DNA from: Clostridia bacterium
GTDB taxonomy: Bacteria > Bacillota > Clostridia > Christensenellales > RUG350
Length of the DNA stretch: 51,841 nt
Direction of reading: 5' to 3'
Assembly: GCA_017631635.1 (NCBI GenBank)
Contig: JAGBSX010000056.1
Location: 1 to 51,841 of the forward strand
Shown here: positions 9,968-39,745 of the stretch, one piece after another
Layout: the number at the start of each line of letters is the position of its first letter
Numbering within the stretch: position 1 is the stretch's first letter
Notes under the pieces: generated by a model
What the model was told of the DNA's origin: nothing
The model's input: the letters and a program-made list of their open reading frames with translations, nothing else
Database searches by the model: none
Position numbers and translations under genes: made by a program

Positions 9968-10170
9968 ACTCGCCGTAGGCGAATATCACTTTGCATAGCA
10001 AAATACAACTGCAAAGCAATACCACTTGCCGACAGGCAAATATAACTGCGCCAGCAATATCACTTGTCGTTAGACAAATATAACTGCGTCACCAATATCA
10101 CTTGTCGTTAGACAAATATAACTGCGTCAGCAATATCACTTGTCGTTAGACAAATATAACTGCGTCAGCC
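9968..10170. repeat. Mini-hairpin array A with 38-bp tandem repeats
   Basis: The 355-bp gap after the surface-protein gene holds the terminator and then this array. Short perfect stems with 3-4 base loops (TCGCC-GTA-GGCGA, TTTGC-ATA-GCAAA, TTGCC-GACA-GGCAA, TTGTC-GTTA-GACAA) alternate with TGC-N4-GCA units, joined by spacers TATCACT and TATAACT. The right half is a tandem repeat of exact 38-bp period, with units starting at 10056, 10094 and 10132. Stem variants change on both arms together. Relatives of this array lie at 35353-35434 and 36058-36162. Confidence 0.9.
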
Positions 10171-35313: not shown

Positions 35314-35352
35314 GGTGCGTCAGAAATGTTGCATTGCTGACGCACCGTTTTA
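35314..35352 (+). terminator. Intrinsic terminator of the lipoprotein operon
   Basis: GGTGCGTCAG (35314-35323) pairs with CTGACGCACC (35337-35346), followed by GTTTTATTT. Confidence 0.88.
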
Positions 35353-35434
35353 TTTGCCTAATGGCAAGTGATATTGCTAGTGCAGTTATATTTTGCTACG
35401 CAAAGTTATATTTTTGCTATCGCAAAAGTTGAGG
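35353..35434 (-). repeat. Mini-hairpin array B (inverted relative to array C)
   Basis: Read on the minus strand, the array runs CCTCAACTTTTGC-GATA-GCAAAA, TATAACT, TTTGC-GTA-GCAAA, TATAACT, TGC-ACTA-GCA, TATCACT, TTGCC-ATTA-GGCAA. It matches array C almost base for base; differences fall in loops or as paired stem changes. The 35306-35601 gap holds the operon terminator, this array and another terminator. Confidence 0.9.
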
Positions 35435-35533
35435 ATAAAGATAATATAATTATTGAAAAAATGCAAAAAACGCTCTTAATATCATTTTGCATCATAGTCA
35501 AATCAACTCTAATAAATTAATTTCTACAATAAA

Positions 35534-35580
35534 AGCCCACTATACTTCGTAAAATCGAAATGTAGTGGGCTGATTTTTTT
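35534..35580. terminator. Long terminator stem, usable on both strands
   Basis: AGCCCACTATACTTCG (35534-35549) pairs with 35556-35571 over about 14 pairs. It is followed by GATTTTTTT on the plus strand and, read on the minus strand, by CTTTTATTG. It would end transcription of the four-helix-bundle gene. Confidence 0.8.
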
Positions 35581-35601
35581 AGAATATAAAGTCTCGCAAC
35601 T

Positions 35602-35958
35602 TTATCTATTATTCTCTTTTATTGTTTTACACGAAGAAATTAACATTTTGCGTATAAGACCACAATCGGTATTAAGTTTTTTATATAGTTCTTCTTCTAG
35701 ATATTTGGTTTCAAAAAGCAGTTCTAACCAGTACTCACTCTCATAACACTCTTTTAATGCTATCTCAAGTTTTGAGATAAAGTCAGCAGTTCCTTGTGCG
35801 TATTGAGCCTCGTGAATATTTGCGCCAATGCTAGTTCCAGAACGCAGAAGTTGATTAGTTAAAACATATTCTTTTTTATTTACTTTGATTGCATTTGTCA
35901 TAAAGACAATGTTTTTTGCAAACTCTTTTGCTTTTTCTCTTAAAACACTCTTGCTCAT
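35602..35958 (-). CDS. Four-helix-bundle protein, S23 / 23S rRNA intervening-sequence family
   Basis: A 118-residue helical protein matching the family first known from proteins encoded in 23S rRNA intervening sequences, related in fold to the Avd accessory protein of diversity-generating retroelements. Typical segments are KEYVLTNQLLRSGTSIGANI (GTSIGANIHEA core) and KLEIALKECYESEYWLELL. The length is normal for the family. Here it is neither inside an rRNA nor next to a reverse transcriptase. It is AT-rich relative to neighbours and sits between two inverted hairpin arrays (35353-35434 and 36058-36162). GAGGT at 35965-35969 supports the start. Molecular role unknown; members form pentameric, basic bundles that may bind nucleic acid. 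Confidence 0.9.
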   Translation of the reverse strand: MSKSVLREKAKEFAKNIVFMTNAIKVNKKEYVLTNQLLRSGTSIGANIHEAQYAQGTADFISKLEIALKECYESEYWLELLFETKYLEEELYKKLNTDCGLIRKMLISSCKTIKENNR

Positions 35959-36057
35959 AATTATACCTCAAAGTTATTTCAAATAATCTTATATCGTATG
36001 CCTTGCTAACCGAAATATTTATTTGTACCAGTTCTAATGAATAAATTATATTTTTTA

Positions 36058-36162
36058 CCTCAACTTTTACTTTAGTAAAAATATAACTTTGCGATAGCAA
36101 AATATAACTGCGTTAGCAATATCACTTGCCGTTAGGCAAATATAACAAATCCGTAAGGATTT
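36058..36162 (+). repeat. Mini-hairpin array C (inverted partner of array B)
   Basis: The order is CCTCAAC, TTTTAC-TTTA-GTAAAA, TATAACT, TTTGC-GATA-GCAAA, TATAACT, TGC-GTTA-GCA, TATCACT, TTGCC-GTTA-GGCAA, then an extra AAATCC-GTAA-GGATTT hairpin. The first stem differs from array B by a compensating G-C to A-T pair. It ends 3 bases before the SGNH hydrolase stop codon. Confidence 0.9.
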
Positions 36163-36165
36163 ATA

Positions 36166-38132: not shown

Positions 38133-38196
38133 TATATAAAATTAATATTTTTCTAACGAAGTCTTCTGGAGTTAGCGACAGGAGATGGAAGAAATA

Positions 38197-38268
38197 TCTG
38201 GAGAATCTCACTAATGAGTGCCGAAGGTGCAAGATATGATTATCGAATCTCTCAGGCAAAAGGACAGA
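38197..38268 (+). promoter_or_regulatory. Glycine riboswitch (single recognisable aptamer)
   Basis: The conserved core is present: TCTGGAGA at the 5' side, GTGCCGAAGGTGCAAG in the middle, and ATCTCTCAGGCAAAAGGACA at the 3' side. Only one clear aptamer is visible. The preceding 38155-38196 stretch forms a small CTAAC/GTTAG hairpin rather than a second full aptamer. A terminator lies 30 bases downstream and the amino-acid symporter gene follows. The 344-bp gap 37998-38341 contains this, two promoters and the terminator. Confidence 0.93.
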
Positions 38269-38298
38269 TAAATGATACTACTATCACGTAGGCATTTG

Positions 38299-38341: not shown

Positions 38342-39745
38342 ATGTTGTGTGCATTTGACCTAAAGGCGATAGTAGATACTATCAATAGCGTGCTTAGTGA
38401 CTACGTATTGTTGATACTATTAGTCGGTACTGGTATTTATTTCACCATACGCACTAGATTCGTGCAGTTTAGAGGTCTCAAGGACGGATTTAAGAGTATA
38501 TTTAGCCGTCGTGAACAATGTCAAAAGGGTGGCATTAGTTCATTTCAGGCATTGGCTACCGCTATAGCCGCCCAAGTCGGTACTGGCAATATCGTCGGTG
38601 CTTGTGGCGCTATACTTATCGGTGGACCAGGCGCTATATTTTGGATGTGGGTGATAGCCTTCTTTGGTATGGCTACCATATACGCAGAGGCAGTACTTGC
38701 CCAAGAGACTAGAGAAAAAGACCCCGACGGTAGTGTCAGAGGTGGCCCTGTGTACTACATCAAGAGAGTATTTAAGGGCAAGTTGGGCAAATTTTTGGCA
38801 GGATTCTTCGCAGTAGCAGCAGTTATCGCACTAGGCATAGTGGGTGGTATGGTGCAGAGTAATTCTATCAGCGCCAACTTCAATACTGCTTTTGGCGTAC
38901 CAGAGTGGGTGACTGGACTAGTCGTAGGTGCTTTGGTGGCAGTCATAGTGTTAGGTGGTGCTACTCGTATAGCCAAAGTCGCAGAGAAGATAGTACCTAT
39001 CATGGCGATACTCTATCTACTAGGAGGTATCGTAGTGCTAGCAGTAAACGTCACTACTCTCCCTGAGACTTTCGCTATGATATTTAGAGAGGCATTTACC
39101 CCTCACGCAGTAGTAGGTGCAGGATTTGGCGCAGTCATCAAGTCTGCTACCCAAGGTGCTAAGAGAGGACTATTTTCTAACGAGGCAGGTATGGGTTCTA
39201 CTCCTCACGCTCACGCACTAGCCGAGGTCAAGTCTCCTCACGAGCAAGGCTCTGTGGCTATGGTAGGTGTGTTTATAGATACCTTCGTAGTGTTGACTAT
39301 CACGGCGCTAGTAGTTATCAACGTGCTTTACGTCAACGGCGAGGTGAGACCTGACGCTACCTTCAATAGCGCTAATATGGCGCAGATGGCGTTTGGCTCG
39401 GTATTTGGCACGGAGATAGGCAATATCTTCGTAGCAATATGCTTGTTGTTCTTTGCTTTTACTACTATACTTGGCTGGAATTTGTTTGGTAAGATTAACT
39501 TCGAACATCTATTTGGCAAGAAATCTCTAGTTATCTACTCTATCATCTCTATAATAGGCGTAGTAGTCGGTTCTTTCCTAGGCAACGATACCGTGTGGGC
39601 GTTTAGCGATTTGTTCAATCAACTAATGGTCATACCCAACGTAATGGCGCTAATAGCCCTATCTTCGCTAGTAGTCAACGCTTGCAAGAAGAAACCCGTA
39701 GACAAAGAGCCTACCCCTCCTACTTCTCAAGAAATTGAGAAATAA
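38342..39745 (+). CDS. Sodium:alanine/glycine symporter, AGCS family
   Basis: Inner-membrane sodium-coupled amino-acid symporter of 467 residues with about eleven helices. Family signatures include FQALATAIAAQVGTGNIVGA, GGPGAIFWMW and the SNEAGMGSTPHAHALA block. The glycine riboswitch in its leader says that glycine is a ligand signal, and probably a substrate. Because glycine riboswitches can switch either way, whether it imports or exports under excess glycine is not settled by sequence alone. GGAGG is at 38331-38335. It is monocistronic with a terminator at 39765. Confidence 0.94.
   Translation: MLCAFDLKAIVDTINSVLSDYVLLILLVGTGIYFTIRTRFVQFRGLKDGFKSIFSRREQCQKGGISSFQALATAIAAQVGTGNIVGACGAILIGGPGAIFWMWVIAFFGMATIYAEAVLAQETREKDPDGSVRGGPVYYIKRVFKGKLGKFLAGFFAVAAVIALGIVGGMVQSNSISANFNTAFGVPEWVTGLVVGALVAVIVLGGATRIAKVAEKIVPIMAILYLLGGIVVLAVNVTTLPETFAMIFREAFTPHAVVGAGFGAVIKSATQGAKRGLFSNEAGMGSTPHAHALAEVKSPHEQGSVAMVGVFIDTFVVLTITALVVINVLYVNGEVRPDATFNSANMAQMAFGSVFGTEIGNIFVAICLLFFAFTTILGWNLFGKINFEHLFGKKSLVIYSIISIIGVVVGSFLGNDTVWAFSDLFNQLMVIPNVMALIALSSLVVNACKKKPVDKEPTPPTSQEIEK

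Follow-up and report, generated by a model that had tools for sequence, protein, structure and literature searches.

S23/IVP four-helix-bundle genes as the probable core of a class of minimal mobile elements with cognate mini-hairpin arrays

A small four-helix-bundle gene lies between two inverted arrays of short hairpins in the DNA analysed here, which raises the question of whether gene and arrays travel together and, if so, as what kind of element. The window, i.e. the whole stretch of 51,841 nucleotides, is contig C3 of a Clostridia genome of 1.32 Mb in 59 contigs. A reading made from the sequence alone had proposed that the two arrays (B and C) bound a mobile unit of about 0.8 kb. Comparison with other genomes leads to a broader view, namely that minimal mobile elements with cognate arrays probably form a class built around S23/IVP genes, of which the pair in the window would be an old copy.

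An unbiased repeat search recovers the inverted arms at 35347-35443 and 36049-36146 as two ungapped pieces, complementary at 92% and 84%. Their 87-nt cores, array B (35347-35433, minus strand, four mini-hairpins) and array C (36060-36146, plus strand, 5' of the gene), are 89.7% identical in opposite orientation, so that the near-identical inverted arrays of the sequence-only reading are borne out. Both were defined by repeat search, folding and copy comparison (and B also by genome matches), and both consist of short hairpins split by 7-nt spacers that read GTTATAT/GTGATAT on one strand and ATATAAC/ATATCAC on the other. Folding exceeds that of shuffled sequence for array C (z of -3.4 as RNA and -4.3 as DNA) and for array B with its end hairpin (z of -4.6). 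The same reading held that all differences between the arrays are in loops or compensated; the compensated stem is correct (TTTTGC/GCAAAA in B, TTTTAC/GTAAAA in C), and the rule fails at one spacer, where B has ATAAAAC at the ATATAAC of C, a change that is neither in a loop nor compensated. The locus lies between two protein genes and outside 23S rRNA, and an Rfam search gives no family match for the arrays and neither an rRNA nor a group II intron match in the window.

The gene between the arrays (35602-35958, minus strand, 118 aa) is, as proposed, an S23/IVP four-helix-bundle gene, with matches to PF05635 (E 3e-28, 98.5 bits against a cut-off of 33.8) and TIGR02436 (E 3e-32). A structure model (pLDDT 95.5) is closest to the S23 structures 2rld (TM up to 0.97 by target) and 2gsc, followed by the diversity-generating retroelement (DGR) protein Avd (4dwl; TM about 0.86 by target length, at 13% sequence identity) and then by Avd in DGR ribonucleoproteins (8ube/8ub7). 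The invariant residues of S23 (Q36, N47, E50, E70, E73, Y76 and W77) form a polar set. Genes of this family, annotated as 'four helix bundle protein', are present in several phyla; to our knowledge they have no known function, and we know of no catalytic activity described for them. That S23 proteins lack a known function has also been stated in print (PMC4990558).

Searching the host genome with the locus, as had been suggested for the array with and without the gene, yields 140 matches, which include about 25 gene-less elements. When read individually, the gene-less elements are 280-400 bp long and have one fixed layout: a left end TAGGGATTTTTA..AACAAAAGTG, a terminator hairpin, a mini-hairpin array laid out as a palindrome, and a hairpin right end that is often centred on AAATCCCTA. 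Short inverted ends, TAGGGATTT..AAATCCCTA, are visible in the elements. A second S23 element of the window's clade, at C52:40050-40706, has an in-frame stop in its gene, and C22:14200-14460 has the same layout with most of the S23 gene deleted. Arrays beside unrelated genes had been named as an observation that would count against a mobile S23 unit, and gene-less copies do outnumber the gene-bearing ones; such an excess is also expected of an element with internal-deletion derivatives. There are six S23 matches in the host genome, one truncated where its contig stops, and those of other clades have spacers of their own (GCGATAT at C34, ATATCATC at C7, AACACAG/AACGAAG at C46, and ACATAAC at C52:387). 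Contig ends hold many array copies, as is usual for repeats, and in this genome the arrays account for contig breaks and for many of the repeats between genes. Two loci of other clades (G000 C52:387 and C46:395; L083 and L084) have the same tRNA context upstream, with the first 152 bp 98% identical, followed by different arrays and bodies and a nearly common 3' end and terminator, which reads as modular exchange. Within the window, repeat and genome searches also recover a solo array of the same family (9970-10165, plus strand), which has a 38-nt tandem unit and neither a gene nor a left end.

Set beside these copies, the structure at the window locus is wider than the interval between B and C. 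On the left it extends to an outer hairpin of the right-end type, the inverted repeat GGTGCGTCAG..CTGACGCACC at 35314-35346 (minus orientation); hairpins of this type (GTGCGTCAG..CTGACGCAC) end other copies (C52:80387 and C33:5191), and this one could double as the terminator of the preceding gene. Array B is followed by a degenerate centre or second half-array (35434-35533, minus), assigned by alignment to the body of gene-less elements (35351-35578 against C1:54300-54640, 71.5%). The terminator that had been placed between the arrays is present as the unstranded inverted repeat GCCCACTATACTTCG..CGAAATGTAGTGGGC at 35534-35571; it lies also 3' of the S23 gene, is the internal terminator of the element family, and recurs beside more than 10 arrays in the host genome. 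Overlapping its edge is a left-end-like sequence, GATTTTTTTAGAATATAAA (35570-35592, plus), which by inspection resembles GGGATTTTTTAGACATTATAAAAG in the related element L101. Upstream of the gene, the interval to array C (35959-36059, minus) is taken, by analogy with other S23 loci, to hold a 5' leader, a presumed promoter region and a degenerate half-array. Beyond array C a right end begins (36147-36165, plus; the AAATCCGTAAGGATTT hairpin, with AACAAATCCGTAAGGATTTATTTAG also found in right ends of type b) and is cut at 36165 by the stop codon of the GDSL gene. No outer host stem is left at this locus.

From this arrangement, two old copies joined head-to-head are the most likely origin of the locus. 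The simplest reading of its left half is a minus-orientation copy with no gene (end hairpin at 35314-35346, then array B and the terminator at 35534-35571), and of its right half an S23 copy in plus orientation (the left-end-like sequence from 35570, the gene, array C and the right end cut at the GDSL stop). The other way to read this one locus, which is compatible with the general class, takes B and C as the two ends of a single 0.8-kb element. They are inverted and marginally each other's best match, with the narrow margin of 89.7% against 88.6% and 87.2% for other copies. Inverted repeats also occur on both sides of the gene at other S23 loci (e.g. L159, L112, L168 and L306 of Nostoc), such that among the loci with the same repeat at least twice downstream 16 of 18 have it inverted and 2 direct. 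Complete relatives in the window's protein clade are built differently, however: L101, L156, L158 and C52:40050 have no downstream array and a distinct left end, and in the first three the whole array is upstream of the gene and the left end is that of the TAGGGATTTTTA side. Array B, moreover, has the family's internal terminator after it and an end hairpin of its own before it, just as gene-less elements do. A single element with B and C as its ends is the less likely of the two readings.

The association of gene and upstream array extends far beyond this locus. In a set of 126 S23 loci, comprising those from genomes of the order and 80 named GTDB loci, a single 7-mer occurs at least 4 times within 350 bp upstream at 96 of them, compared to 31 of 780 control windows (odds ratio 77, Fisher p 2e-74), where the controls are drawn from the same loci with coding sequence included, and the S23 loci are phylogenetically non-independent, a few being duplicated between two collections (e.g. 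L103 = L204). By this 7-mer measure about a quarter of S23 loci are without an array. An S23 gene above the cut-off is present in 26 of the 121 genomes of the order. Of the segments between consecutive spacers, 41% contain a stem of 5 bp or more, compared to 3.4% of shuffled ones (95 loci), and in the window's clade, using spacer-only extraction, stems of at least 4 bp are found in 75% against 15%; since the stem sequences differ, it is the pairing itself that is kept. The last spacer is a median of 58 nt from the S23 domain, and promoter-like sites within 90 nt of the S23 start are seen at 55 of 130 loci and in 18 of 130 shuffles.

Spacer type follows the protein. Protein identity and array composition are correlated (Mantel r 0.52; 0 of 5000 permutations reach this value, the largest being 0.08), and the spacers that group by S23 identity include GTTATAT/GTGATAT in the window's clade, as well as GTTATGA, AGCTAAA, AATGATG, GTGATGC, AGTGATG, ATGAAGC, ACTTCAC, TGAATTG, GTGAAAT/GATTTCA and ATATCGC. 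This match shows co-inheritance at the least, and suggests that S23 may bind its cognate array; it also yields protein-nucleic acid pairs that are directly testable. A search of the open-access literature, with subscription journals and preprints thinly covered, found the heptamers of the Coxiella intervening sequence but no account of S23 genes with genome-wide arrays; within this coverage the general S23/array system is undescribed.

A clade-specific match of this sort suits any binding relation, and the array stands directly upstream of the promoter region, an operator-like position. S23 could be a repressor or an RNA-binding regulator, with the array as its operator or target and the module co-inherited rather than mobile. 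The many gene-less arrays far from S23 genes argue against this, as do the conserved hairpins between spacers, which a double-stranded DNA operator would not need, and the occurrence of 99.3% identical copies at different sites and in terminator loops, described below. We consider a purely regulatory module very unlikely.

The preferred reading, that of a mobile element, draws on the DNA surrounding the copies. The host DNA to the left of an element is the reverse complement of that to its right, with an A-run and a T-run, and differs from copy to copy; as the flanks are complementary and copy-specific, the elements lie inside the loops of host intrinsic terminators. For 16 elements of the host genome the left flanks pair with their own right flanks better than in any re-pairing (0 of 20000), the pairing being uneven among single copies, of which L020, L032 and L046 have no clear stem. 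Four complete elements of the window's type carry the gene, in four genomes, and every one is in a terminator loop with a stem of about 12-16 bp; in all four the stem arm pairs best with its own partner: AAAAAATCGAACG/CGTTCGATTTTTT for L101, AAAAAAGTCCGG/CCGGACTTTTTT for L156, AAAAAAACGCCCCCGG/CCCGGGGGCTTTTGTTTTTTT for L157 with L291 (the two sides of the L157 element are on separate contigs with an overlap of about 77 bases), and AAAACGCCGTCGC/GCGACGGCGTTTT for L158, where the terminator is that of a thioredoxin gene.

Two of these elements, L156 in Candidatus Ornithoclostridium faecavium and L157 in another Clostridia metagenome-assembled genome, are 99.3% identical over 1225 bp that span the array, the S23 gene and a methyltransferase-like cargo gene. 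Identity starts exactly at the right-end hairpin; the flanks are unrelated and, in a whole-genome search, almost without counterpart in the other genome, and each copy is in a terminator loop, that of a different gene in each case. If contigs were mis-binned, the organism assigned to each copy could be in doubt, but not the presence of one element at two sites. What generally marks a mobile element is observed here: near-identical copies, different sites and a precise boundary. The idea of a mobile S23 unit is upheld to this extent, in that a gene/array unit recurs, the array tracks the protein clade, gene-less copies are many, and near-identical copies occupy different sites. Its proposed form, a standard unit of about 0.8 kb running from B through the gene to C, gives way to one with a one-sided array, distinct ends and a terminator-loop position, as in the complete relatives.

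Among the relatives compared there is no orthologous empty site, these being too distant or having another array type at the same gene; in the genus of L101 the regions downstream of argS are not alignable and offer none. The argS terminator of a sister species (G118:C25, L276) is followed by an array of the TGAATTG type, and in the congeneric G084 a GTTATAT-type S23 element is in the argS terminator loop, a pattern that points to sites of this kind having been used more than once. The terminator 3' arm was also considered as a target-site duplication, and none was found, scores at loci of several clades being at the level of shuffled sequence.

In other clades a complete terminator-like hairpin is found at the array edge, at 37 of 88 loci and 14 of 401 controls, using a detector written after an earlier one proved faulty (it extended stems across the T-run and overlooked obvious terminators; 11/70 vs 26/246, no enrichment). 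Because this hairpin is at the edge of the array and not around the element, loop insertion is demonstrated for the GTTATAT type only. One such hairpin, CAAAAAACGCACTTTTGTCTAC..GACAAAGGTGCGTTTTTTG, is at the 5' edge of arrays L192, L185, L194, L191, L198 and others, and an apex TTTGTCTACC is common to several clades. As it occurs beside different tRNA genes in different genomes it may belong to the element, and is probably an element-borne end hairpin.

Hairpins arrayed between conserved spacers, present in many copies of which some lack the gene, also resemble REP/BIME sequences, raising the prospect that the arrays are moved by an unrelated enzyme (a RAYT/Y1 protein, another transposase, or a reverse transcriptase acting in trans) with S23 as a passenger. 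Reverse transcriptase genes are indeed somewhat commoner in the S23-bearing genomes of the order (10/28 vs 12/93, Fisher p 0.011). A profile search of the host genome, however, gives no RVT_1 and no Y1_Tnp match despite the many array copies, and spread driven by either enzyme was rejected on these grounds; Y1 is not associated with S23 in the order (11/28 vs 35/93, p 1.0), and a passenger would have no need of a spacer that tracks its clade. That S23 is merely carried along is thus unlikely. The cognate S23 elements proposed here share with REP/RAYT (TnpA_REP) systems the arrayed short hairpins, the high copy number and a cognate protein, and differ in that S23 is a four-helix bundle with no HUH/Y1 domain, that the spacers are 7 nt, and that insertion is into terminator loops. 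Other comparisons are similarly partial. DGR Avd has the same four-helix-bundle fold, whereas the host genome has no reverse transcriptase match and no template/variable repeat pair is seen. Group IIC introns are tied to intrinsic terminator stem-loops as well, but S23 elements are inside the loop rather than after the stem, in a host genome with no reverse transcriptase and a window with no intron match. As for the traits of MITEs, short inverted ends are seen, the duplication test (several clades, terminator 3' arm) is negative, and the transposase search covered Y1. We know of no mobile-element class that has S23 as its only shared gene, the nearest relative being the intervening sequences (IVSs) of rRNA.

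IVSs with an S23 ORF are present in the 23S rRNA of Coxiella and Leptospira, and we know of no explanation for how rRNA intervening sequences reach their sites. That of Coxiella is a 428-nt selfish element which replaces a tetraloop of 23S helix 45, and its S23 ORF is directly preceded by heptamers in tandem, GACAGAT (PMC4990558). Protein family, hairpin-loop position and 5' heptamers are common to both systems, and replacement of a hairpin loop is seen in close relatives within the window's clade; the elements described here differ in that they lie between genes, in the loops of terminators, and occur in many copies, that their mini-hairpin arrays are long, and that they include derivatives with no gene and sometimes carry cargo. 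The combination of S23 gene, 5' heptamers and hairpin loop is the best argument that IVSs with S23 ORFs would be one case of the same class, by an analogy drawn with one published IVS.

An element of this class would consist of a 7-nt spacer/mini-hairpin array 5' of the gene, an S23 gene with its own promoter, optional cargo, a terminator and short ends, with each S23 clade having its own spacer. Avd partners a reverse transcriptase and RNA, and because S23 has an Avd-like fold the most likely arrangement is an S23 oligomer on its own array in single-stranded form, as RNA or ssDNA. It may be the resulting nucleoprotein that enters hairpin loops, a cognate S23 acting in trans would move the copies that lack the gene, and S23-bearing IVSs would be members of the class that have landed in hairpin loops of rRNA helices. 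Candidates for the strand-joining activity are S23 itself, a host enzyme, or an enzyme encoded elsewhere in the genome. The stronger proposal, in which S23/IVP is the defining and possibly catalytic part of an unrecognised element class that recognises its array as ssDNA or RNA and inserts into hairpin loops, with terminators and rRNA helices as targets of the same machinery, is put forward tentatively. If true, the orphan 'ribosomal S23' proteins would be tied to a new mode of selfish DNA spread. Terminator loops would be an unusual target, and insertion there would spare flanking genes and could alter transcriptional read-through.

Genes found after S23 in or near the elements encode a SAM-methyltransferase-like protein (L156, 3350-3946), a protein of unknown function (L292, 1212-1601, minus strand) and a membrane protein (L162, from about 3364), and are possible cargo. 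Viral origin was considered and set aside, as few viral contigs carry S23 (8 loci among 2.9 million contigs; 2 phage records). A simpler form is found on plasmids of cyanobacteria, Bacteroidota, Chloroflexota, Clostridia and spirochaetes, where short repeats in tandem, for the most part heptamers and with no hairpins, are found on the two sides of the S23 gene; these are often inverted across the gene, e.g. TTCGTAA and TTACGAA on the two sides in Nostoc. Four plasmid genes of the simple type (L304, L307, L309 and L310) are inside restriction-modification or DISARM-like operons, at positions such as hsdS-hsdR and drmD-mmeI, in line with IVP genes noted in cas loci (PMC3936711). In the window itself, a glycine riboswitch (RF00504, 64.7 bits) is present at 38188-38277, upstream of a transporter-like ORF at 38342.
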